Part shown: piece after piece, positions 4,848 to 26,923 of the stretch | Layout: every line of letters begins with the position of its first letter | How positions within the stretch are numbered: position 1 is the first letter of the stretch | From: Tannerellaceae bacterium | Lineage (GTDB): Bacteria; Bacteroidota; Bacteroidia; Bacteroidales; Tannerellaceae | Reading direction: 5' to 3' | Length of the DNA: 33,622 nucleotides | Assembly: GCA_031280435.1 (NCBI GenBank) | Contig: JAITGS010000074.1 | Coordinates: 1-33,622 of the forward strand | The notes under the pieces: model-generated | What the model saw: only the letters and a program-made list of their open reading frames with translations | Database searches by the model: none | What the model was told of the DNA's origin: nothing | Program-made: the position numbers and the translations under genes

Positions 4848-5837
4848 ATGGACAAGAAAACAAATTTTTTTCAATACACAAACAATTTCATTAAAACCTC
4901 GCATGTTTTATCTATTCCGATATTAGAGTCAAATTTGCGTAATAAATCGGCGGTTACGATTGCAATACCTACATATAAACGAAGTAATTTGCTGAAAATA
5001 ACTATTGATAGCGCATTAAATCAGTATGGATATGATGATTATAATGTTATAGTGATAGATAATAATCCGGAACGAAATGATGCTACCGAGCAATTGCTAC
5101 TTACGTATAATAACTCCAAATTAAGTTATTTCAAAAATGAGCAAAATATTGGAATGTGTGGAAACTGGAATAGATTTTTTGAATTATCGCAAACACAATG
5201 GACTGTAATGCTGCATGATGATGACATATTATCTCCTTATTATCTTGAAACGATAAGTCGATATTTAGATGATAATATTTCATTAATAAAACCTCAAATT
5301 GTTAAATTCTACAATAATGAGAATTTAGAATATCCGAAATATCAGTGCACACTACCGTTGAGGAAATTGGCATTAACCGATTTTATGTTGGGTTGTGCTA
5401 TTGGAGCGCCTTCTCATGTGATTTTTCAAACAAAAGATGTTATTCAATTAGGCGGATTTAACGAGGATTTTTATCCGACGTTTGATTTTGTCTTTAATTT
5501 ACAATGTGTCAAATGCAAAAATATTTATATGCTTCCTTATATGCTCGGCGGTTATAGGGTTCTTGAAAATGAAAGTCTGCAACAATCCACAATGAAACGG
5601 TACTTTCAAAATCGTCTTATTATAAGTGCTTTTATTTTAAGAAATCTACATGTTCCGAAATTATTTATTAAAATCATTCACTTTTTTGCTTATCCGTTAT
5701 GGGTAGGCGATATAGGACGAAAATATAAAATGAAGTATAAAATGAATATCGTTTATCACATTCTGCCCGATTGTATAGGCAGCTTTGTTGTTAGAGTTTT
5801 TTCTTATATGGTAAAAGCTATAAATAATGTCTATTAA
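4848..5837 (+). CDS. glycosyltransferase family 2
   Basis: A 329-residue GT-A fold inverting glycosyltransferase that would add one sugar to the lipid-linked O-unit at the cytoplasmic face. The family-2 start AVTIAIPTYKRSNLLKITIDSAL lies about 35 residues in, so there is a short N-terminal extension. NVIVIDNNPERND, the GMCGNWNRFFE segment and the metal-binding MLHDDDIL motif follow. A 58-base AT-rich gap separates it from the reductase gene. It overlaps the flippase gene by 11 bases. Donor and acceptor cannot be told from sequence. The gene is clearly AT-rich compared with rfbFHG. Confidence 0.88.
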   Translation: MDKKTNFFQYTNNFIKTSHVLSIPILESNLRNKSAVTIAIPTYKRSNLLKITIDSALNQYGYDDYNVIVIDNNPERNDATEQLLLTYNNSKLSYFKNEQNIGMCGNWNRFFELSQTQWTVMLHDDDILSPYYLETISRYLDDNISLIKPQIVKFYNNENLEYPKYQCTLPLRKLALTDFMLGCAIGAPSHVIFQTKDVIQLGGFNEDFYPTFDFVFNLQCVKCKNIYMLPYMLGGYRVLENESLQQSTMKRYFQNRLIISAFILRNLHVPKLFIKIIHFFAYPLWVGDIGRKYKMKYKMNIVYHILPDCIGSFVVRVFSYMVKAINNVY

Positions 5838-14200: not shown

Positions 14201-14504
14201 GGGGTCAATGCGACTGTCGCATTTTGCCCGGGAGAAGTTGTGGGGCCAATGCGCCATGACCGGATTTTTTTGACGGGCATCAAATTCAGTTTGATGGCGC
14301 CCGGATTTTTCTGACGGATATCGAATTCAGTTTGACTGGGCTCAGATTTTTTTGACGAGGATCGAATTCAGTTCAAAACCTCCCAGATTTTTTTGACGGG
14401 GATCGAATTCAGTTCAAAACCTCCCGGATTTTTCTGGCTGGGATCGAATTCAGTTCGACGGCGCCCGGATTTTTTTGACGGGGATCGAATTTAATTCGGC
14501 TAAT
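14201..14504. repeat. 41-bp tandem repeat array 1
   Basis: Six clear units start about every 41 bases, anchored on GATTTTT at 14263, 14304, 14345, 14386, 14427 and 14468 (spacing exactly 41 each time). The consensus reads roughly CCGGATTTTTTTGACGGGG, then ATCGAATTCAGTTC, then a variable end. Two older, degenerate copies precede it: GGGGTCAATGCG at 14201 and GGGGCCAATGCG at 14242, again 41 bases apart. Each unit holds a small inverted repeat around TTCAG, for example CATCAAA/TTTGATG in the first unit and TCGAA/TTCGA in the fifth. No open reading frame of interest crosses it. It occupies most of the 600-base gap between the polysaccharide terminator and the next gene; 14076-14200 shows nothing recognisable. 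Confidence 0.95.
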
Positions 14505-14605: not shown

Positions 14606-15538
14606 ATGAACAAACCAATATCGATTCTCTTTAAAACCTCCGTGCGGAAGCTGCGTATAGGCGAGCACGAATATTTTTATTCTGCACTTATTGCCGTGCT
14701 CAATGCCCTTGTCGGAACCGTTCCGAGCCTTGTCCCCATATTTACAGTGCTTAAAAACAAAGTTGCATCGGAAGCAGAGCTGTACAAAATCGTTCTGGCA
14801 TCGGCCCTGACGCCTGAACTCCTCTTCCTTCATCGCCAGCGTATTTCGGCCTTCGGACTGTTCAAGCATACCGTTGGTCACGCCGAATTTTCGAAGGTTG
14901 CCGCCGTTTTGCAGGCTCACAACATCCTCCGGCCGCTCGTGAACACTTACAAAAACATTGGCAAGGGTTCCTACATGAACATAAGCGGTATGTTTTCCAA
15001 TTTCATAATTGATTGCGAGAAGGCCGAATACAGTCCTTTCCTCCAGACGCTCGCCCTGATACTGCTGCTGGCCGAGATGAAGAATGTAAACAATCAGTTT
15101 AAGGATAAATTTATAGAGCGGGCGATAGATAAGGAAAATGTATCCCGCAAGGGTTCGCTTGCCTCTGCCCGGACTGAAGTGGACGGAGCTTTCGAAATCT
15201 TTATCGACGCCATAAACAGCGCCTACCTGCTCAACGAACTTGGCGCCAAGGATCCGACCCTGCGCGCTAACCTCACAAACCTGATCGTCCCGATCAACGC
15301 CGAGCTCACCGAGGTGAAGAACCTCCTGGCACATCGCGGACATCACAAACCAAAAGACGACGGCAAGGAGGACGGCGGCACCCAAACCCCAATAACTCCT
15401 CCTACGCCTCCGCCCCCTCCGGAAACCGGTACGCAAAACCCCAACACTGACCGGCCGGACGCTTCGCAAACCACCCAGAATCCAACCGACGAGCCGCATC
15501 ACCTCGACCCCAACGAGCATCCGGCCATGGGCGAGTAG
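14606..15538 (+). CDS. DUF6261-like protein with proline-rich tail
   Basis: A 310-residue protein without signal peptide or clear membrane helix. Residues 1-245 are mostly helical. The segment after LALILLLAEMKNVNNQFKDK and the later FIDAINSAYLLNEL resemble the Bacteroidetes family DUF6261, whose function is unknown. The last 65 residues differ: they are rich in Pro, Thr, Asn and Asp (TPPTPPPPPETGTQNPN) and look disordered. The start at 14606 fits the promoter 32 bases upstream. It forms its own transcription unit, with a terminator 30 bases after the stop. The family name rests on recognition of the helical pattern only. Confidence 0.65.
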   Translation: MNKPISILFKTSVRKLRIGEHEYFYSALIAVLNALVGTVPSLVPIFTVLKNKVASEAELYKIVLASALTPELLFLHRQRISAFGLFKHTVGHAEFSKVAAVLQAHNILRPLVNTYKNIGKGSYMNISGMFSNFIIDCEKAEYSPFLQTLALILLLAEMKNVNNQFKDKFIERAIDKENVSRKGSLASARTEVDGAFEIFIDAINSAYLLNELGAKDPTLRANLTNLIVPINAELTEVKNLLAHRGHHKPKDDGKEDGGTQTPITPPTPPPPPETGTQNPNTDRPDASQTTQNPTDEPHHLDPNEHPAMGE

Positions 15539-16443: not shown

Positions 16444-17268
16444 ATGTCAGTAGCAAAACGAAACTCAGACGACAGGAAAGTCACTACTCATCGCCTCACG
16501 GAGATGAAAAAGCGCGGAGAAAAGATTGCAATGATTACGGCCTACGACTTCTCTATGGCCAAGATTATTGATGCAGCCGGGATGGACGTAATACTCGTGG
16601 GCGATTCGGCTTCCAACGTAATGGCCGGCAATATAACCACGCTCCCCATCACGCTCGACCAGATGATATATCACGGCAAATCGGTTGTGAAAGGCGTCAA
16701 GCGGGCGCTCGTGGTTGTCGATCTGCCCTTCGGAACCTATCAGGGAAGCGCCAAGGAGGCCGTTTCGTCGGCTATCAGGGTGATGAAGGAAACGCATGCC
16801 GACTGCATCAAGATGGAAGGCGGCTCGGAAATACGCAAGGCCGTGGAGCGAATCATCTCCGCCGGAATACCCGTCATGGGGCATCTGGGACTAACGCCGC
16901 AGTCGATCAATCGCTTCGGAACCTACACGGTCAGGGCCCGCGAGGAGGCCGAAGCCGGCAAGCTCATCGAAGACGCCCATCTGCTCGAAAACCTCGGCTG
17001 CTCGGCCATAGTGCTCGAGAAAATACCTGCGCTGCTGGCTGCACAGGTAGCTTCCGAGCTGACAATCCCCATGATAGGAATAGGCGCCGGAGCCGGAGTA
17101 GACGGGCAGGTGCTCGTGGCCCACGATATGCTGGGCATAACCGAGGGCTTCTCGCCACGCTTCCTCAGGCGATACGCCAACCTGAAGGACACAATCACCG
17201 GCGCCGTGCAGACATATATAGAAGATGTGAAGCGACAGGACTTCCCCAACGCGAAAGAGCAATACTGA
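16444..17268 (+). CDS. panB: 3-methyl-2-oxobutanoate hydroxymethyltransferase (PanB)
   Basis: Transfers a hydroxymethyl group from 5,10-methylenetetrahydrofolate to 2-oxoisovalerate to give ketopantoate, the first committed step to pantothenate and coenzyme A, in the cytoplasm. The 274-residue length is normal. Seen are the N-terminal [20 protein letters not shown], the metal/substrate motif [44 protein letters not shown] and the C-terminal [20 protein letters not shown]. The gene stands alone here; panC and panD are not in the window. A strong terminator follows within 30 bases. Confidence 0.97.
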
Positions 17269-17292
17269 GCTCCTGCCTGAGGCCATAAAAGA

Positions 17293-17334
17293 GAGGGCCG
17301 CCCGACGTTTCCTGTGCGTCGGGCGGCCCTTTTT
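17293..17334 (+). terminator. rho-independent terminator of panB
   Basis: A 14-bp perfect stem, AGGGCCGCCCGACG (17294-17307) with CGTCGGGCGGCCCT (17317-17330), encloses a 9-base loop and is followed by TTTTT. Just after it, a second small hairpin (GTGGCCCC 17340-17347 with GGGGCCAC 17359-17366) runs into the left inverted repeat of the next element. Confidence 0.93.
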
Positions 17335-17362
17335 ATGATGTGGCCCCGGCCGTCGATTGGGG

Positions 17363-17675
17363 CCACTTCTTATTAAGAAGCGGAACGCTCATCTTTAGGA
17401 GCGATTCGCAAATGTACAAAAGATTTGGCAGTAACAATTTAGCGATCGACATATATAAGACAAGCCAAACAGCCTCCCCGCCAATGCTACTTGAAAACAA
17501 GCGTTTAACATCTGTTTTCCGGAATCCGCAATAAAACTCCTAAGAGCCGGAAGCTTATACGGATTGTGTTTTACAAGCCTTAAACGCCGGCCCTTTTTCC
17601 CAGCCGAGTACAGGGATAGAAGCCAAGTCTTTATCACTGCCCGCTCTGAGCGTTCCGCTTCTTAATAAGAAGTGG
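17363..17675. repeat. 313-bp segment with perfect 29-bp terminal inverted repeats (candidate invertible promoter or MITE)
   Basis: The left repeat (17363-17391, starts CCACTTCTTATTAAGAAG) and the right repeat (17647-17675, starts TGAGCGTTCCGCTTCTTAAT) are exact reverse complements over 29 bases, with 255 bases between. Each repeat is itself an imperfect palindrome around CTTCTTA-n-TAAGAAG. The right copy extends this to about 27 bp (GTTCC...GGAAC, 17652-17678), the form expected of a site-specific recombinase crossover site. The inside holds one good promoter that points left (next entry). No flanking target duplication is visible, which speaks slightly against a transposed MITE. The weak 80-codon frame between the repeats on the minus strand (17395-17637) has no recognisable features. 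The segment sits directly before the sigma-like gene. Confidence 0.85.
17409..17437 (-). promoter_or_regulatory. outward/leftward promoter inside the inverted-repeat segment
   Basis: On the minus strand, TACATTTG (plus-strand CAAATGTA, 17409-17416) matches the -7 consensus TAnnTTTG exactly. A TTG (plus-strand CAA, 17435-17437) lies 18 bases upstream as -33 box. It is the only exact -7 match between the two repeats on either strand. In the present orientation it reads toward the panB terminator. If the segment were inverted, it would sit just inside the right repeat and read into the sigma-like gene about 80 bases away. No exact TAnnTTTG box is seen between the right repeat and that gene, only TATAGTTTG with one extra base. 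Confidence 0.55.
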
Positions 17676-17720
17676 AACTTTTTAAACAAGGAAAGGGAAT
17701 CATTTTATAGTTTGTACGCT

Positions 17721-18971
17721 ATGCTTTTGAAAGAAATACTGAGGAAGGAAGAAGAAAAACACAGGCTTAAGTTTATAGGAATAGTTACCGATTGGGAAGA
17801 TACAATGAAGCGGACGGCCAAGGCTTTTGCACCCGGCCCGAGCTTCGCGGCCGAGCATAAGGCTAAGCTTCTGCATTGCTTTTATAGCTCCATACTCGCT
17901 TACAACAATTTCATACGGAGGGAGAAATTCCGTAATGCTAATCTGAAACGACATCACTTTATGAAGACCGCCACTTATGTTCTGCGCCTGCGAAATGCCC
18001 CGGCAGACGGCCTCGACGGCGAACTGAAAACAGGCGCCGCCATAACGCTCGCCTATCATCTCTCGCCAAGCCTGTACGAGGCCATCTACACAGGCTTCTG
18101 CGATTGCGAAACAGACTTTGCCTCGCCGCAGGAGGCCGACGACTTCTTTGCCGCCGGAGCAGCCGCAGGCTTTCCGCTCGATGTGGCCCGACTCGTGGAG
18201 CGCCTCTCGGTCGATGATGCCTCGTTTTGGGAACTGCTGGCGCGATACCTTAAGGACCTGGCTTATGCCGCCGTGAATTACTATTTGCAGAAGGCGGACG
18301 ATAGCGGCTATTCCGAGATAATAAGGGATGATACCTGGACTAATGCTTACGAGATTTTGCGCAGGCGCTTTGTTTTGGGCCAGGGCAATGTCCCGGTCTT
18401 TGAAAGCGGCCGCGATTTCCGCAATTACATCATCACCGTTTGCAAAAAACTCTCGGCCAACCTGTACCGCAAGTACTGCCTGAAGCAGGAGCTGTCCCTG
18501 TCCCTCTCCTATCCGCCCGGAAGCAGCGCCGACGACGAGGCCGACAGTCCCGTCCGGGAGCAGAGCACCTTCGACCTGCCGGAGGATGAAGACGGCGAGC
18601 CCTCCGACGACTTTGCCCTGCTCGACATCAATCCGGATAACCCCTACGAGGTGGCGCATGCCGTGTCAATCATATTGCTGAACTCCGCGCATCCGCTGCA
18701 TAGCCGGCTGATAGCCGGCATAGAAGACAAGGTGCGGATACTGATCGACAAGGCAACGAACGGGATGAGCTACAACGAAATCATCTCGGAACTGTACGGC
18801 GAGCGAAACATGAGCCGCGAGGAGTTTCAGCGCGCCGTAGTGAAGGCCCGCAAGGATTACGAGCGGGTGAGGAAGCTGCTGTTCGAGCGTTTGACGGGCT
18901 TAATAAAAAAAACGTCGGGCGCCGTCACAATCCCGGCATCGTCGACATACTATAATAAAAAGCAATTATGA
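17721..18971 (+). CDS. divergent RNA polymerase sigma factor-like protein
   Basis: A 416-residue cytoplasmic protein from ATG 17721 (a TTG at 17712 would add three residues). Residues 1-195 are not recognisable. Residues about 198-255 (DTWTNAYEILRRRFVLGQGN to IITVCKKLSANLYRKYC) resemble sigma region 2 of ECF factors, with an acidic linker (DDEADSPVREQ...PEDEDGEPSDD) after it. Residues about 347-390 (MSYNEIISELYGERNMSREE to KARKDYERVRKLL) resemble region 4, the -35-binding helix-turn-helix. The next gene, overlapping by four bases (ATGA), encodes a membrane anti-sigma factor, which supports the call. It is far longer than ordinary ECF sigma factors (about 180 residues). Sequence similarity is weak, so this is a context-supported assignment. 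Confidence 0.62.
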   Translation: MLLKEILRKEEEKHRLKFIGIVTDWEDTMKRTAKAFAPGPSFAAEHKAKLLHCFYSSILAYNNFIRREKFRNANLKRHHFMKTATYVLRLRNAPADGLDGELKTGAAITLAYHLSPSLYEAIYTGFCDCETDFASPQEADDFFAAGAAAGFPLDVARLVERLSVDDASFWELLARYLKDLAYAAVNYYLQKADDSGYSEIIRDDTWTNAYEILRRRFVLGQGNVPVFESGRDFRNYIITVCKKLSANLYRKYCLKQELSLSLSYPPGSSADDEADSPVREQSTFDLPEDEDGEPSDDFALLDINPDNPYEVAHAVSIILLNSAHPLHSRLIAGIEDKVRILIDKATNGMSYNEIISELYGERNMSREEFQRAVVKARKDYERVRKLLFERLTGLIKKTSGAVTIPASSTYYNKKQL

Positions 18972-19603
18972 AGGAGATTAAATACAGAGTGTGCTCGACG
19001 GCGCAGGCAGATCGTTATCTGCTGAACCGCATGTCGGCCGAAGAGGAGGATAGCTTTCAGGAGCATCTGGAGCAGTGTGCCTCGTGCTCCGACTATCTGA
19101 AGCGAGTGCGGACGCTCTCGTCGCTTATATCCGGCGAAGAGGCTACGGCTTATGAGGAAGAATTTGAGGCTGCGACGCAGCTGCGTAGACGGCTGAAGCT
19201 CCGGACGCAGCTGTCTGTGGCGGCAGCCATTGCACTGCTGCTGAGCGTGTCGCTCTATTGGCTTGCAGGAGAATATCCGGGGAACGGGCTCACGAGCCAC
19301 ATCCCCTTCATCAGCGAGATGTCGCGGGCCCGAGGAGCCGATGCCGATCTGCAGGTATTATTCCCCGACAAGGATACCCTCACCTTTATTATATCCGAAA
19401 AGCCTCTGGTATTGAAGTGGAACAAGGCGGTCAACTATAAGCTGACCCTGCGCTCGAACGGCAAAATGGTGATGCAGATAAGAGCCTTCGGCGATCATTA
19501 TTCGCCGGGCCGCGAGGAGCTCGCTCGACACCGGCATTTAGACTGGACGCTGGAAGGGAGCTCCTTCGCACGCAAGGAGGGGCATATACTGCTGAAGAAA
19601 TAG
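18968..19603 (+). CDS. transmembrane anti-sigma factor with zinc-binding motif
   Basis: A 211-residue single-pass membrane protein. The cytoplasmic part has the zf-HC2/ZAS motif H33-x3-C37-x2-C40 (HLEQCASC) in a helical setting (ADRYLLNRMSAEEEDSFQEH), as in RsrA/ChrR-type anti-sigma factors. One membrane helix spans about residues 82-100 (LSVAAAIALLLSVSLYWLA). The remaining 110 residues would be periplasmic and may sense an envelope signal; part of it (PLVLKWNKAVNYKLTLRSNG) looks like a small beta domain. The start overlaps the sigma-like gene's stop, typical for sigma/anti-sigma pairs. It would hold the sigma-like protein at the membrane until released. Confidence 0.78.
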   Translation: MKEIKYRVCSTAQADRYLLNRMSAEEEDSFQEHLEQCASCSDYLKRVRTLSSLISGEEATAYEEEFEAATQLRRRLKLRTQLSVAAAIALLLSVSLYWLAGEYPGNGLTSHIPFISEMSRARGADADLQVLFPDKDTLTFIISEKPLVLKWNKAVNYKLTLRSNGKMVMQIRAFGDHYSPGREELARHRHLDWTLEGSSFARKEGHILLKK

Positions 19604-19643: not shown

Positions 19644-20174
19644 ATGAAGACAATCAATCTAATGAAGTACATTTTACTATTGTGTGCGCTTGGCCTGTGC
19701 ATGTTTTCGTGCAAGAGCAAGGATGGCTATTTCCGCATGCCGGAGCTCGATTTCAGATCGGATGCCTATTTCTTCAGGGCCGTAGGCTCGGCTGAGGATG
19801 CCGCCATGCAGACAGCTAAGGCCAAGGCCGTCCATCTGGCCAAGCTGGATATAGCGAAGAGCATGGGCTCGGTGATGGAAGCCACGGTCAAGAACTATCT
19901 CGGAAGCGCAAATAACGGCGACAGCCAGGACAGATTCGAGCAGATAAGCCGCGAAACCGTGCGGCAATCGCTCGTCGACGTCAGGCTGAAAGACCTTGTT
20001 TACAAACGGGAAAAGAACGGCAACTTCTCCTGCATAGCCTTCGTTGAGATGCCCGTGCAGGAAGTGTCGGGAAGGTTCGCAAGGCTGGGAGCCGAGAGTG
20101 TGCAGCTCGACAAAGAGCTCTTCGAGCAGGAGTATAACCGTGCCTTGAGCACCATCAACAGCCGGGAGCTATGA
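19644..20174 (+). CDS. LPP20-like lipoprotein
   Basis: A 176-residue probable lipoprotein. The signal peptide (MKTINLMKYILLLCALGLCM) ends in a lipobox-like FSC with C23 as lipidation site; an alternative start at Met7 would also work. The mature part begins with FFRAVGSAEDAAMQTAKAKA, a pattern of the LPP20 family where aligned alanines mark a helix before a small alpha/beta domain. KNGNFSCIAFVEMPVQEV is the matching strand. The Cys after Lys-rich spacing fits an outer- or inner-membrane-anchored protein. It overlaps the next gene by four bases. Function is unknown; similar proteins accompany envelope machines. Confidence 0.72.
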   Translation: MKTINLMKYILLLCALGLCMFSCKSKDGYFRMPELDFRSDAYFFRAVGSAEDAAMQTAKAKAVHLAKLDIAKSMGSVMEATVKNYLGSANNGDSQDRFEQISRETVRQSLVDVRLKDLVYKREKNGNFSCIAFVEMPVQEVSGRFARLGAESVQLDKELFEQEYNRALSTINSREL

Positions 20175-20956
20175 GAGCGCTCGGATTAATAGCCTGCGCA
20201 GCGCTCTTATGTGCCGGAAGCCACATGGCAGGCGCGCAAACAATCAAGGTACGGAATGCAAAGGGCGAATGGCCGGTGCAGAACATCACGCCGGAGAAGG
20301 CCAGGGAGCTGGCTCTGTTTAACGCCAAAACCGATGCGCTCAAAAAAGCCGGGATAGGCGAGGTAGTCACCGGCATAGACCTGTCGAGCGACGACGAGTT
20401 TGTCCGGATATCGAACATAGAGATAGGGGGCGACGTTACGGACTTCGAGATAGTGAGCGATGACTTGAAAACCATGCAGTTCGAATCCTTCAAGATAATC
20501 GTCGCAGAGGTGGTTATCAATGCCGAGGTCAGGAAATACAATACCGCGCCCGACCCCGAATTTCAGTTCAAGGTGGAGGGAATAAACCGCAACTATAAAG
20601 AGCACGAAAACCTCTTTTTCTCGATCACCCCATATCAGAACGGCTATCTACGAATCTTCCTCTTTGAAGACGACGGACGGGGCGAGCTGATATATCCCGA
20701 CAATCTGGAGCTCGACCTGCTGCATACCAAAGACAAAGCCGTAGACTTCCCTATGAACCGGGAGTATCAGTATAGGCTCGTCGGGACGGATCAGACCAAG
20801 AGCCGGGAGAACAACCGCCTGCTCTTCGTATTCCTGAAGAACAAGATTCGGTTCACCGAGCAGGACGTCAACCTGCACTCCGTGCTGCACTGGCTTGCCA
20901 AAATAGAGCCCGACAAGAGGATGACAAGCTTCGTGCAGTTCTCAATCTCCAAATGA
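20171..20956 (+). CDS. secreted protein with DUF4384-like C-terminal domain
   Basis: A 261-residue exported protein with a signal peptide (MRALGLIACAALLCAGSHMA, cut likely after AGA at residue 22). Residues about 35-120 form an LPP20-like region (PEKARELALFNAKTDALKKA, then a strand IIVAEVVINAEV). Residues about 140-205 (LFFSITPYQNGYLRIFLFED) match the pattern of DUF4384, a beta domain frequently found beside or fused to caspase-like and stress-operon proteins. The start overlaps the lipoprotein gene (ATGA). Its role is probably periplasmic and tied to the caspase-like protein three genes on; that is inference. Confidence 0.7.
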   Translation: MRALGLIACAALLCAGSHMAGAQTIKVRNAKGEWPVQNITPEKARELALFNAKTDALKKAGIGEVVTGIDLSSDDEFVRISNIEIGGDVTDFEIVSDDLKTMQFESFKIIVAEVVINAEVRKYNTAPDPEFQFKVEGINRNYKEHENLFFSITPYQNGYLRIFLFEDDGRGELIYPDNLELDLLHTKDKAVDFPMNREYQYRLVGTDQTKSRENNRLLFVFLKNKIRFTEQDVNLHSVLHWLAKIEPDKRMTSFVQFSISK

Positions 20957-20982
20957 TTATTAATCCCTTAAATATTTTAATT

Positions 20983-22599
20983 ATGTATAGAAAACATCTC
21001 AGCTTACTTTTGATCGGCGGCTTATCCCTGCTGCCGGGCCTGATCACAGCCCAAATCGGCAACGTCCGGGTGGCGGCCGAAGAGAATAGAATCATTATCA
21101 CTTACGACTACGTGGAGCAAAGCGAGGCTATCGACGACATAGCCGTCACCTACACCTCAGGCTCCGACACTACGGCCAAAAAGGCTACGGCCTTAAGCGG
21201 CGACATTCGCGACCTGCGTCCCGGAACCGACAAGCGCATCGTCTGGAGTCCGCTGGAAGAAACTCCGGTACCTTCGTCGGAGAACTTGGTCATCAAGCTC
21301 ACCGGCCTGCGCGATCCGGCAAAGCAGGAGCTCTGCGACGACAAGCTGCATCTGGCCGACAATTATTTCCGCATGGAAGACAACGACAACGCCATCCATT
21401 ATTATAAGGAGATGCTGAACTGCCCCGGCTGCAATTGCCATCCTAAGGACATAGCATACGCGCTTGCGCAGATTGAACGGGCCGAAGCCAGGATGAACCA
21501 AAAAGACAAGCTGCACCTTTCCTACCTCTTCGATATGGCTACGGCCGACGGAGGAGGAAGCCTGCAAGGCGTTTCCGTCTTCCAGCTGCGAGCCAAGGGA
21601 GTGGGATACTATGCCTCCTTCCGTTCAAACGGCGCATTCTATTCGCCCCAGCGAACCGCCTCCTACTACAATCACAAGGACCATGCCGACAACTACATCA
21701 TCGAACCGCTCGGGACGACGCGCATCTCATCATGGCTCTTCTCAACCGGAATCACGCGGCGCTTCTGGCATCATGAGTACGCTTCGGCATACGCCTACGG
21801 CGGAATAGGAATAGGAGCCAACGCCACCGCCGGCGAGCATCACGTAACCGAAGCAGGATATACCGGCAAGCAATGGATCACCAACGAGCGACAGAACCTC
21901 TTCCTCAGTCCGGAGCTCGGAGTGATGGCCAACGTGGTCGACTGGATATCGCTTATGGCAGGAATAAAGCTGCCGATAGCACTCACCGACCACGACATAG
22001 TGAAGCCCAAAGGCATCAGCTTTATGCTCGGCGCAGGAATCAAGCTCAAGAACCTCGATGCGGATACTTACGGCCGGCGAGCCAACACCTACGTGGCATA
22101 CATACTCGACCTCCCCGACCAGTCCGGCCCCGACAAGCTGCAAAGCACAAACATCATAGGTATCTCCGCCGGAACACTATCATATAATAAGGTAGGAGGA
22201 TATTTCTCGGCAAGGATAAACCCGCTGGTATTTAACTCGCGCGAGGAATCCGACCTGGGCGAAGGAGCCGTTTACCGCGGAATGACCGACTACGGCAACG
22301 CCTTCGCAACCGTTGGCCTCACGTGGATGTACTTCTACGGAGGCGTAGGAGTATCCTACCAAAAAGAATTTAAAGCCTACCGCGAAGACGGAGCCGACAT
22401 CTGGAACAGCTCTCGAACCAAGTTCGGAGCATGCACCGAGTTCGGCATCAACCTGCGCCTGTTCGACAAGCTGCTGCTCCGCGGAGGAGTAACCTTCCCC
22501 GGATTCAACCTTAGCGGAGCCGACGGAGTCTTCACCATGGGGCCGAACAACATCTACTATTCGCTCGGCATAGGCTATGTTTTACCCTCAAGATACTAA
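20983..22599 (+). CDS. probable outer-membrane beta-barrel protein with N-terminal Ig-like domain
   Basis: From ATG 20983 the protein has 538 residues and starts directly with a signal peptide (MYRKHLSLLLIGGLSLLPGL...TAQ); an ATG at 20953 would add an unlikely ten-residue leader. Residues about 24-110 form an Ig-like domain seen in Bacteroidetes envelope proteins (RIIITYDYVEQSEAIDDIAV, then SGDIRDLRPGTDKRIVWSPL). Residues about 115-165 are helical with four Cys in the loop CPGCNC and look like a TPR-type unit (LADNYFRMEDNDNAIHYYKE). From about 170 on, alternating strands with aromatic ends (GVGYYASFRSNGAFYS; YYSLGIGYVLP at the C-terminus) suggest a beta barrel. Function unknown; it ends three bases before the caspase gene. 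Confidence 0.65.
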   Translation: MYRKHLSLLLIGGLSLLPGLITAQIGNVRVAAEENRIIITYDYVEQSEAIDDIAVTYTSGSDTTAKKATALSGDIRDLRPGTDKRIVWSPLEETPVPSSENLVIKLTGLRDPAKQELCDDKLHLADNYFRMEDNDNAIHYYKEMLNCPGCNCHPKDIAYALAQIERAEARMNQKDKLHLSYLFDMATADGGGSLQGVSVFQLRAKGVGYYASFRSNGAFYSPQRTASYYNHKDHADNYIIEPLGTTRISSWLFSTGITRRFWHHEYASAYAYGGIGIGANATAGEHHVTEAGYTGKQWITNERQNLFLSPELGVMANVVDWISLMAGIKLPIALTDHDIVKPKGISFMLGAGIKLKNLDADTYGRRANTYVAYILDLPDQSGPDKLQSTNIIGISAGTLSYNKVGGYFSARINPLVFNSREESDLGEGAVYRGMTDYGNAFATVGLTWMYFYGGVGVSYQKEFKAYREDGADIWNSSRTKFGACTEFGINLRLFDKLLLRGGVTFPGFNLSGADGVFTMGPNNIYYSLGIGYVLPSRY

Positions 22600-22602
22600 G
22601 CC

Positions 22603-24228
22603 ATGAAGAAGAGAAGCATCACAATAGCACTGTCATTATGCATGGCATGCGCCTCCCTTGCCTGGGGGCAGGCTTCATCGGGCAGCGTATCGGTTTCTAT
22701 CAGCGGCCTCTCCTTCGCGCCGGATTCTATGACGGACATACCCGCCGTGCAGAGCCCGCCGCTGCTTGAGATTTCAGACCTGCGCCTTGCAGGAACCGAC
22801 AGCCCCGGAATACTTGCGGCCAACGAATCCGGCTTCATCTACTTCACACTCCGAAACGCAGGGCAGGGCGACGCTTACAATCTGCGGCTGTACGCTTCGG
22901 AGAAAAACGGCATAGAAGGCTTGCAGCTTCCCTCCCAAAAGTTCATAGCACGGCAGCTCAAGCCGGGCGAGAGCCGAGCCGATTCCCTTTCCGTATCGGG
23001 CCTTAGGAACCTTGCCGAGGGAATGGCCGAAATAGAGCTGTATATGAACGAGGCAAACAGCCATGCCGGCCCGCCCGTGCAGACCTCCATACGCACGCGG
23101 GAGTTCTCGCTGCCCAAGCTGATCATATCAGACATTGTGCTGTCGGACATCAGCGACAGGGAGATCAGGCTCTATGCCACGATCAGGAACAGCGGCCTCT
23201 CAAGCCTGCAAGACGTCAGCATAAACGTGAAATACCCCGACGTTGTGCTCGCCAAAGGAAAGAGCTCCGAAACGCTGCCGCTGCTCAAGCCCGACGAATC
23301 GAGGGAAGTGTTCTACACCTTCGCTAAAACGCGAGCCTTCAACGGCACGCACAACTACACCTTCGACGTCGACATAAAAGACAAAACAGACCTCGCCAGA
23401 TACCACAAGGCCGTCTACACCAAAGAAAGAGTAGTCGCTGCGGAGCGCGACCCCATAGACAACGATATCCCGCGCTCCACCAAGGTAGAGCCCAGCTCAA
23501 ACACATACGTGCTCATCATAGGCAACGAAAACTATAAGAAAATATCACCCGTGCCGCATGCAATCAACGACGCCCGCGTGTTCGGCGAATACTGCCGCCT
23601 CACCTACAATGTGCCCAAGTCAACAAACATACACTTCGTGGCCAATGCCGGACTGGCAGACATGAAGGATGGATTGGACTGGCTTGTAACAAAGGCCAAA
23701 GAAGCAAAAGGAGGAAACGCCGAGCTCATCATCTACTATTCCGGCCACGGAACGGTAGGCAAAGCCAGGGACGGGACAAGCGACGACGACCAGTACCTCG
23801 TGCCCGTCGACGTGTCGAACCTCGACGTAAGCCTGTCGATCAGCCGCCACGACATCTACGCATCGCTCAGCGAAGTATCCTTCAAGCGAGCATCCATCTT
23901 CCTCGACGCATGTTACAGTGGCGACAAACGGCCGATAGTGAAAGAGCCGGTATACAAATGGAAAGGCAAAATCTTCCTTTTCGCATCATCCTCCTTAGGA
24001 CAGGTATCCAACCCATACTCCGAGAAAGGCCACGGATTCTTCACCTATTTCCTCCTCAAAAGTATATGGGAAACACGCGGAAACATCAACTACGCCGACA
24101 TGGTCGAACAGGTCAAGCAACAGGTGAGCTCCGTATCAAAAAGCATAACAAAGGAAGAGCAGAAGCCACAGGAAGTTCCCATGCCCGAAGCAAAAGACGA
24201 ATGGAAGCGATGGAAAATAGCCAACTGA
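22603..24228 (+). CDS. caspase-family cysteine protease (peptidase C14), exported
   Basis: A 541-residue protein with a signal peptide (MKKRSITIALSLCMACASLA, cut near GQA). Residues about 60-290 contain two Ig-like/CARDB-type beta domains (FIYFTLRNAGQGDAYNLRLY and YATIRNSGLSSLQDVSINVK). The C14 domain begins about residue 305 (TYVLIIGNENYKKISPVPHA). The catalytic His is H382 in IIYYSGHG and the catalytic Cys is C437 in IFLDACYSG, with the family's normal spacing. FLFASSSLGQVS and GHGFFTYFLLK complete the fold. It should cleave after basic or acidic P1 residues, which cannot be told here. The signal peptide puts it in the periplasm or on the surface, unlike cytosolic metacaspases. It is the centre of the sigma/anti-sigma operon. 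Confidence 0.92.
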   Translation: MKKRSITIALSLCMACASLAWGQASSGSVSVSISGLSFAPDSMTDIPAVQSPPLLEISDLRLAGTDSPGILAANESGFIYFTLRNAGQGDAYNLRLYASEKNGIEGLQLPSQKFIARQLKPGESRADSLSVSGLRNLAEGMAEIELYMNEANSHAGPPVQTSIRTREFSLPKLIISDIVLSDISDREIRLYATIRNSGLSSLQDVSINVKYPDVVLAKGKSSETLPLLKPDESREVFYTFAKTRAFNGTHNYTFDVDIKDKTDLARYHKAVYTKERVVAAERDPIDNDIPRSTKVEPSSNTYVLIIGNENYKKISPVPHAINDARVFGEYCRLTYNVPKSTNIHFVANAGLADMKDGLDWLVTKAKEAKGGNAELIIYYSGHGTVGKARDGTSDDDQYLVPVDVSNLDVSLSISRHDIYASLSEVSFKRASIFLDACYSGDKRPIVKEPVYKWKGKIFLFASSSLGQVSNPYSEKGHGFFTYFLLKSIWETRGNINYADMVEQVKQQVSSVSKSITKEEQKPQEVPMPEAKDEWKRWKIAN

Positions 24229-24234
24229 CACGCC

Positions 24235-25683
24235 ATGAAGCACAAGATTACGGCATTAGTCATAATGCTTTGCGCCCTTACTAAAGTAGGAGCGCAAGAA
24301 GAGCTCGACAGCATAGTGAAGCAATTCATGGCCGACAGGCAGCTGATGCTCGAAGAGTTCAACGCATACGTCGATTCCATAGACCTCGACTTCTCGCGAT
24401 ACCTTGCCCGCAACTGGGATACCTTCCGCGTAGAGCCCGCCGTGCAGGCCCCCGTCAAGCCGCAGCCCAAAGAAGAGCCCGTTTACGTGCCCGACATAGC
24501 GCCGCGGCAAGACTCGGCCGTCGTCATCGAATCCGTTCCGGATGATGCGGCATACATGGAGCCGGCCATTCCCAAAGCAGACCTCCAGATTATGCCCGGA
24601 GCCGCGGCCGGCGCAAGCCTCAGCGTCGACTTCTTCGGCGGGCCCGTAAGGGTAGCAATACCCGAAGGCTATCAAACCGGAGCCGAGCCCCTCGGAACCG
24701 GAGAGAAGCAAGTGGCCGACTACTGGTTCAAGCTATCCAAAACAGGCAGCTCCGCCTTCGTGCGAGACCTCATGCTCAAGAAAGAAGCACTCGACCTCAA
24801 CTCCTGGGGCCTTTACCGATTCATACTCGCCACGGCCAACGCCTGCTTCAGCGAACGGCAGCCCAACGAAAGAGCCGTCTTCACCGTTTTCCTCCTCAAC
24901 CGAGCAGGATACAAGGCCCGCATAGGACGAATCAACAATGCCCTCGTAGTAATGCCCGCCATACGGAACAAAGTGTACGGACTGCAATACATACCCTTCC
25001 GCGACGGCAACTATTACATAATGGACAACATAGACACCAGCGGAGGCATCGCTTCTTATAACCTCAACTACGGACGGGCCGCCTTCTTCATCGACCTCCG
25101 GATAATGAAGCCCCCCAAGCTACCCATAAACCTGCGGACCGTGGAGAGAAGCTACAACGGTAAAACGTACAGCATAAGGAGCAACAAAAACTTGGTGGAC
25201 TATTACGGCGCATATCCGCATACATCGCTCGACATATATGGCGACATGCCCTTCTCCGACATTTCGGGGCAAAGCCTCGACGCCGCGCTCGAAGCCGACA
25301 TGAAGGGGAAAACCGAAGCCGAAAAGCTCAGCTTCCTGCTCAACTTTGCCCAGCGGGCCTTTAAGTACAAGATGGACGAAGATGTTTTCGGACGCGAGAA
25401 ATTCTTCTTTGCCGACGAAACCCTTTTTCATCCATGGTCGGACTGCGAAGACCGCGCCGTGCTCTTCAGCCGGCTCGTCAAGCGCTTTTGCGACCTCAAG
25501 GTGCTGCTCGTAGACTACCCCACGCACGTGGCAACAGCCGTGCGAATCAACGAGCCCGGCGACGCCATCGTTTACAACAACGACCGCTACGTCATCTGCG
25601 ACCCCAGCTATGTGGGAGCTCCCGTAGGCGCCACCATGAGCGGCTGCAACAACGAATCCGCCGAAGTGATAGCCCTCAGATGA
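24235..25683 (+). CDS. transglutaminase-like cysteine protein, exported
   Basis: A 482-residue protein with a signal peptide (MKHKITALVIMLCALTKVGA). Residues about 75-110 are Pro/Asp-rich and probably disordered. The C-terminal third carries a transglutaminase-like papain fold: C404 in SDCEDRAVLFSRLVK, H431 in DYPTHVATAV and D456 in YVICDPSYVGAPVG form the Cys-His-Asp triad. FLLNFAQRAFKYKMDEDVFG before it is the usual helix of such domains. Bacterial members act as proteases or amide-crosslinking enzymes. It starts six bases after the caspase-like gene, and it ends the operon. The pairing of two cysteine enzymes in an operon with sigma/anti-sigma genes is unusual. Confidence 0.85.
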   Translation: MKHKITALVIMLCALTKVGAQEELDSIVKQFMADRQLMLEEFNAYVDSIDLDFSRYLARNWDTFRVEPAVQAPVKPQPKEEPVYVPDIAPRQDSAVVIESVPDDAAYMEPAIPKADLQIMPGAAAGASLSVDFFGGPVRVAIPEGYQTGAEPLGTGEKQVADYWFKLSKTGSSAFVRDLMLKKEALDLNSWGLYRFILATANACFSERQPNERAVFTVFLLNRAGYKARIGRINNALVVMPAIRNKVYGLQYIPFRDGNYYIMDNIDTSGGIASYNLNYGRAAFFIDLRIMKPPKLPINLRTVERSYNGKTYSIRSNKNLVDYYGAYPHTSLDIYGDMPFSDISGQSLDAALEADMKGKTEAEKLSFLLNFAQRAFKYKMDEDVFGREKFFFADETLFHPWSDCEDRAVLFSRLVKRFCDLKVLLVDYPTHVATAVRINEPGDAIVYNNDRYVICDPSYVGAPVGATMSGCNNESAEVIALR

Positions 25684-26254: not shown

Positions 26255-26923
26255 ATGACAACAAAAGTTTTCTTTACAATTTTAGGATTCGCATTGATAC
26301 TTACCGCATGCGGTACGAGTAAAAAATCAGTAGGCACGTCGGGCAACCCGGCTCCTCCCACAAGGGATGAACTTGTAACCGAGGCGGTGCGCAAAGCCAT
26401 GAAAGACGCCCGCGATGCAGCGAAAGTCTACGAAAAGGACGGCTACAAGACTTTCATAGGCGCCCTCCCAATGGCGCGGCAGGTGGAAGAATCCTACCTC
26501 CGCAATGTACAAAAGGATGCCAAGGGGCAGCCCCTCTACCTGGCCGGCGATGCCGACGTTACCGGCGGAAGCTCAGGCGTTGCACAGGCACAGGCGCTTC
26601 ATCAGGCCAAGGTCAATCTGGCATCGCAGGTCAACGTCCACCTGGCCGGCCTGGTAAAGCAGAGCCTCGGAGAGGATAAATCTGCCTCGCTCGGAAAATT
26701 TCTGCAGGCCACCCAGGAGCTACTCGTGGGCGACATGGAGCGCGTCGACAAGGTGATAGAGATTTACAGGCAGCTGCCCGACAACCGCTATCAGGTCCTC
26801 ACCCGCGTGATGTACAACACCGACCTGGCCATGCAGGCAGCCGAGAAGCGCCTCTTGCAGTCGCTCGAAAACGAAGCCGAAGACCTGCACAAAGAAGTAT
26901 CCGAAATCCTTAACAGGCAATAA
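26255..26923 (+). CDS. LPP20-like lipoprotein
   Basis: A 222-residue lipoprotein. The signal peptide MTTKVFFTILGFALILTAC has a good lipobox (LTAC, lipidated C19), followed by a Ser/Gly/Pro linker. The body has GDADVTGGSSGVAQAQALHQ leading into a long helix (AKVNLASQVNVHLAGLVKQS), the layout of LPP20-type proteins, and a helical C-terminus (NEAEDLHKEVSEILNRQ). It resembles the lipoprotein at 19644 in plan but not closely in sequence. It is the first gene after the second repeat array and is followed by its own terminator, so it is probably a separate unit. Role unknown. Confidence 0.75.
   Translation: MTTKVFFTILGFALILTACGTSKKSVGTSGNPAPPTRDELVTEAVRKAMKDARDAAKVYEKDGYKTFIGALPMARQVEESYLRNVQKDAKGQPLYLAGDADVTGGSSGVAQAQALHQAKVNLASQVNVHLAGLVKQSLGEDKSASLGKFLQATQELLVGDMERVDKVIEIYRQLPDNRYQVLTRVMYNTDLAMQAAEKRLLQSLENEAEDLHKEVSEILNRQ

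Follow-up and report, generated by a model that had tools for sequence, protein, structure and literature searches.

A putative invertible promoter upstream of a sigma-like, anti-sigma and caspase-like operon in a Tannerellaceae bacterium

The operon and the inverted repeats that precede it

The window is a 33,622-nucleotide stretch from a Tannerellaceae bacterium, whose genome is termed G000 here (its relatives are Tannerellaceae MAGs, numbered G001 onward, with sample codes suggestive of termite gut metagenomes). The features of interest include: (i) panB and its terminator, which insulates the downstream region from read-through, (ii) a pair of inverted-repeat arms enclosing an outward promoter, and (iii) an operon that starts with a sigma-like gene (Table 1). 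The gene order of this operon is kept in five other species, to the extent of their contigs.

Table 1. Coordinates of the features upstream of and within the operon, and of the candidate recombinase gene encoded elsewhere in the genome.
Feature	Position	Strand	Remarks
panB (ketopantoate hydroxymethyltransferase), upstream neighbor	16444-17268	+	
panB terminator, intrinsic, strong	17284-17340	+	-39.6 kcal/mol
Left inverted-repeat arm	17363-17391	+	Site core CCACTTCTTATTAAGAAGCGG at 17363-17383
Invertible interior (putative)	17384-17654	.	271 bp separating both 21-bp cores
-7 box TACATTTG, outward promoter	17409-17416	-	Aimed away from the operon as assembled
TTG of -33 element	17435-17437	-	18 bases upstream of the -7 box
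AAACA half-site	17513-17517	-	134 bp from promoter-end site; rest of family 132-135
AAACA half-site	17567-17571	-	83 bp from far-end site; rest of family 80-94
Right inverted-repeat arm	17647-17675	-	Site core CCGCTTCTTAATAAGAAGTGG at 17655-17675
Right-arm palindrome then TTTTT, terminator-like hairpin	17652-17683	+	Predicted part of the 5' leader once ON
Sigma-like protein, first gene of the operon	17721-18971	+	Profile match of the C-terminal half to ECF sigma regions 2-4
Anti-sigma factor (zf-HC2)	18968-19603	+	
Lipoprotein-like protein	19644-20174	+	Kept in the operon
DUF4384 protein	20171-20956	+	
Secreted-looking protein, family not recognized	20953-22599	+	Kept in the operon
Caspase-like peptidase (Peptidase_C14) with CARDB domain	22603-24228	+	
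Conserved protein	24235-25683	+	Ends the tightly packed block
Conserved lipoprotein-like protein	26255-26923	+	Next gene in orthologous operons too
Tyrosine recombinase, 397 aa, intact gene	G000:C25:19774-20964		Arm-DNA-bind_5, Phage_int_SAM_5 and Phage_integrase domains

Alignment of orthologues makes ATG 17721, not TTG 17712, the most likely start codon of the sigma-like gene. Its product has no match in Pfam or NCBIfam; however, profile-profile comparison of six orthologues against 15 ECF sigma factors from the same genome gives a match spanning residues 165-377 (probability 79%, E 1.6e-5; 0.2% for the reversed control). A PDB sequence search with the orthologue profile returned weak matches only, including one ECF sigma at E 1, and the single-sequence AlphaFold model (pLDDT 39.8) was unusable. 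The product is, thus, a putative sigma factor on profile-profile grounds, and the function of the operon is likewise predicted from sequence. Two sigma-like orthologues, those of G004:C130 (L018) and G005:C136 (L020), each have one in-frame stop (TAA and TGA, respectively) inside the matched stretch. Repeats of other kinds are noted as well: degenerate direct repeats of type GGATTTTTTTGACGGGGATCGAATTCAGTTC are found at 14260-14500 of the window, upstream of an ORF at 14606, and AAACGNNCGTTT repeats with a 42-bp period are found at G003:C7:15393-15782 and C143:14656-14919.

The initial annotation described perfect 29-bp inverted repeats 255 bp apart, each an imperfect palindrome, and recomputation confirms this: the arms are 29 nt each, 100% complementary and spaced by 255 nt (chance expectation ~5e-11), with a 27-bp near-palindrome of the form GTTCCRCTTCTTA-N-TAAGAAGYGGAAC at each arm (17360-17386 and 17652-17678). 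Folding of the right arm gives a strong hairpin (-16.6 kcal/mol, z -4.8) with U5 after it. The single exact TANNTTTG box of the interior is the minus-strand, leftward box of Table 1, also in agreement with the earlier description of a lone box, with TTG 18 bases upstream, that faces away from the operon. On the plus strand, no -7 box is detected in 17269-17720, even allowing one mismatch in TTTG; thus, the operon as assembled has no visible promoter between panB and the sigma-like gene, as had been claimed. In silico inversion moves the -7 box to 17622-17629 of the plus strand, with TTG 18 bases upstream, and so aims the promoter at the sigma-like gene as proposed; the computed distance to ATG 17721 is 91 bp, close to the 'about 80 bases' first given. 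The arrangement is that of an inverton, in which inverted repeats of 10-40 nt bound a promoter-bearing segment adjoining a gene start.

A family of paired sites in Tannerellaceae

The interior of the window element has no second copy in its own genome. The repeat itself, for which a genome search had been recommended, recurs there: the genome has four full sites as two pairs, and a third locus opens contig C64. The second pair is found on contig C109 (2525-2551 and 2722-2748, with 30-bp perfect repeats), and its interior carries an exact promoter, TATATTTG, aimed away from an acetyltransferase-like gene that begins 55 bp past the left site. In C64, the site occupies the first bases of the contig, and a paralogous gene begins ~40 bp after. 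Both genes are presumed to be of the MBOAT type, as read from sequence and not from a family search.

Among the relatives, more than 20 inverted paired copies are found in the genus and family, many upstream of SusC-like genes. The genomes with the site include G001, G003, G004, G005, G010 and G017 of the genus (and G018, with one mismatch) and G020, G033, G117 and G138 of other family genera. The reversed control pattern does not occur in the own genome and is almost never found in the relatives. A pattern scan of contigs also finds the site unpaired, as a lone palindrome and probably a terminator, in Sporosarcina, Psychrobacter and others. A few elements depart from the simple pair. Three sites at 53-840 of G017:C118 (L058) form two adjoining invertible segments preceding a 641-aa ORF, a possible multi-state switch, and a switch-like element at ~4950-5440 of G020:C5 (L088) is flanked by 1402-bp inverted copies that are 99.8% identical. 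A Dysgonomonadaceae MAG, from a sample shared with a Tannerellaceae MAG, has three sites; these stand in a row at 1733-2341 (L115), and one interior is 90% identical to that of G010 C9 from the same sample, a likeness that may reflect transfer between families or mis-binning.

The members of this Tannerellaceae CCRCTTCTT-type family share a blueprint. Nearly all sites are inverted pairs 200-550 bp apart (mostly 330-380), and the central bases of the 21-bp sites vary among elements (TTATTAA, TTACTAA, TTATCAA, TTATGAA, TTACCAA and TTCGAAA) but agree inside each pair. Site-specific recombination requires matching central bases. Well-preserved interiors have one outward promoter each, whose -7 box begins 30-33 bp from one site; they also have two motifs of type TTTGCAAACATTTTTGCAAACA, both reading toward the promoter end. 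Most of the family promoters were called by consensus alone. The AAACA halves of these motifs keep set distances regardless of total length: 69-82 and 80-94 bp for those measured from the far site, 143-146 and 132-135 bp for those measured from the promoter-end site. With at most one mismatch, 81 motifs of this type occur in 32 interiors versus 15.8 expected from dinucleotide shuffles.

The window element fits this blueprint in that its 21-bp sites form an inverted pair with a matching core, and the -7 box begins at 33 bp from the left core, inside the family range. Only two AAACA are found on the relevant strand; their distances, 83 bp to the far site and 134 bp to the promoter-end site, correspond to the second halves of the motifs, and the partner half of each is degenerate. 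Thus, the element appears to be a member with partly eroded motifs. The two own elements are also short (271 and 176 bp compared to 305-360 bp in most relatives), with one AAACA per pair left, or one lost. Overall, its assignment as a candidate invertible promoter of the CCRCTTCTT-type family is well supported.

A second type of candidate switch precedes the same operon in two relatives. The sigma-like gene is preceded by AAACGTTCGTTT and AAACGAACGTTT, 129 bp apart, in G005 and by AAACGACCGTTT and AAACGGTCGTTT, 175 bp apart, in G014; in both, a TANNTTTG box adjoins the inner side of the upstream arm and faces away from the operon. The Mpi promoter repeat of B. fragilis, ARACGTTCGTN (PMC8375218), is exact in G005, deviates in its central bases in G014 and is absent from the window arms. 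Mpi-type pairs occur several times genome-wide in G005, and the only close inverted pair among eight matches in G014 is the one at the operon; from pair counts, a chance pair within a few hundred bases of a given gene is estimated at ~1e-3 to 1e-4 per genome. The operons of G003, G004 and G011 and a second copy in G014 have no Mpi-type element. All three elements found at the operon (window, G005 and G014) are in the OFF orientation. The Mpi-type elements of the two relatives, as a second and unrelated inversion system before this operon in other species, suggest selection for its phase variation (stochastic control).

Candidate recombinases and evidence of inversion

No recombinase gene is recognized in the window, as stated in the initial annotation, and the search of the genome that it advised for a serine or tyrosine invertase finds the tyrosine recombinase of contig C25 (Table 1) and an Mpi-like serine recombinase (G000:C85, 196 aa). 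Within the family, orthologues of the tyrosine recombinase (at least 46% identity) occur in 10 of 12 site-bearing genomes compared to 8 of the 113 others, with a Fisher p of 1.4e-8 that serves as a guide only because related genomes are not independent. Two genomes, G017 and G117, have sites and no close recombinase match. Several of the eight site-negative carriers have inverted pairs of a variant site (CCACCTCTTRCTTAGAGGTGG or similar), ~350 bp apart and beginning a few dozen bases past the recombinase gene. A variant or common site (or pair) is found shortly downstream of the recombinase gene in G005, G007, G014, G018, G029, G033, G108, G110, G134 and G138; the linkage is loosest in G134, where the pair is several hundred bases away. 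The C25 gene of the own genome has no adjoining site. Mpi-like genes show no association with the window-type site among genus members (p 0.66). The C25 enzyme is, on comparative grounds, the likely invertase of the window element. Its arm-binding domain would fit the paired motifs found at fixed offsets in the DNA, by analogy with the arm-site recognition of CTnDOT-type integrases (PMC8138268).

Inversion is apparent from comparison of related loci. At a SusC-type locus with flanks ~77-87% identical across G001, G117, G003 and G010, the interior of G003 is inverted compared to those of G001 and G117, such that G003 is ON and the others OFF relative to the gene. Similarly, contigs C187 and C233 of G004 are paralogous loci with left flanks 90.7% identical and interiors 89.5% identical in opposite orientation. 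Inversion has, therefore, occurred within the family. In G003, the element (2251-2612 of G003:C139, L057) is flanked by two divergent SusC-like genes; thus, its inversion would choose either gene and would not act as an on/off switch.

Contig breaks are also frequent at the sites, with 9 of 27 element-bearing places at most 250 bp from a contig end (1.2 expected) and two contigs, own C64 and G004 C233, that start or end in the site itself. Such breaks would fit mixed orientations in the samples, although near-identical paralogous interiors can also break assembly. The G001 contigs C55, C82, C96 and C106 (L042, L043, L045 and L046) have pairwise ends in the same interior joined to different flanks, a pattern that either mixed orientations or the presence of several near-identical elements would produce. 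The window element itself is predicted to flip in its own strain.

Interpretation and alternatives

The favored reading, with a probability of about 0.86, is that 17363-17675 is an inverton flipped by a trans-acting tyrosine recombinase, OFF as assembled and ON after inversion. The recombinase of the C25 type would bind both inverted sites, contact the internal AAACA half-sites as arms and invert the stretch between them. As assembled, the promoter would drive transcription toward the panB terminator and the 3' end of that gene, leaving the operon OFF; once flipped, it would read into the operon, and the right-arm hairpin would be part of the leader. Expression is, thus, predicted to follow orientation. 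The invertible-promoter reading of the initial annotation gains strength from the same site pairs around an outward promoter at more than 20 loci, from inverted interiors and from a linked, co-occurring tyrosine recombinase. Support falls from the element being still active in this strain, to the C25 protein being the one that flips it, to the half-sites serving as arm sites.

The element could instead be a frozen relic that descends from an invertible promoter and no longer flips, with the operon silent or served by another promoter. This is unlikely, although the own elements are consistent with inactivity because their interiors are shortened, half of each arm-like motif is gone and the own recombinase is unlinked to the site; the arms at two loci are nonetheless perfect repeats of 29 and 30 bp, the -7 box and leftover AAACA positions match those of relatives within a base or two and the candidate recombinase gene is intact. 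That the same switch is flipped by the Mpi-type serine recombinase of C85 is less probable still: Mpi is a master invertase of B. fragilis (PMC4747536), and the own genome has an Mpi-like gene, yet such genes are equally common with and without sites in the genus, Mpi sites (PMC8375218) are unlike those of the window and it is the tyrosine recombinase gene that is linked to sites.

Two further readings dispense with inversion of a promoter. A MITE (a non-autonomous transposable element with palindromic ends) would explain a terminal repeat in several copies per genome. This alternative, raised in the initial annotation, is very improbable and not borne out: target duplications are absent from the outer flanks inspected at both own loci, interiors are mostly dissimilar between loci (paralogues excepted), the position before orthologous SusC genes is the same in four species, cores agree within and differ between elements and the promoter geometry is fixed. 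Finally, two similar terminator or attenuator hairpins, with no recombination, would account for the strong right arm and its U5, but matched asymmetric cores in inverted pairs at more than 20 loci, most without a T-run, together with the inverted interiors and recombinase linkage, leave this reading scarcely credible.

Several known systems resemble the proposed inverton. The polysaccharide promoters of B. fragilis are alike in that a short invertible promoter in inverted repeats occurs at many loci under a master recombinase acting in trans; however, Mpi is a serine recombinase that uses ARACGTTCGTN (PMC8375218), whereas the elements here have CCRCTTCTTNNNAAGAAGYGG, a tyrosine recombinase and, in the window, a regulator/protease operon as target. 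The B. fragilis tyrosine recombinases Tsr0667 and Tsr19 control promoters at a distance as well as SusC/D shufflons (PMC4747536). As far as the available text of that study goes, they resemble the present family in acting on several invertible loci, including SusC-like genes, with local and distant sites, and differ in that internal paired half-sites are not described; this comparison is by description and not by site sequence. The IntCTnDOT-type integrases share the Arm-DNA-binding, SAM-like and integrase domains and recognize arm sites besides core sites (PMC8138268), but integrate and excise mobile elements, whereas the family here would invert promoters. In Clostridioides difficile, pdcB and pdcC are also regulatory, not surface, genes with an invertible upstream element (PMC9286219); by contrast, they belong to an unrelated phylum and another type of signaling, with no sigma/anti-sigma/caspase operon.

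The kind of switch is, thus, already known; the site family, its likely enzyme, its geometry and its target appear undescribed as far as the literature was searched, and that search found no invertible promoters of caspase or sigma operons. The broader proposal stands at about even odds: that these are miniature-integrase-site switches, with a CTnDOT-like recombinase, internal arm-type sites and a genome-wide regulon, and that the operon was independently captured by two unrelated systems in three species.

In Bacteroidales, the known cases of phase variation mainly concern surface structures. With an operon of a regulator and a caspase-like protease under a flip switch, a clonal population would be able to split at the level of a whole regulatory program. 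In addition, the fixed internal half-sites provide a testable model for the recognition, and perhaps the direction, of inversion by an arm-binding tyrosine invertase.
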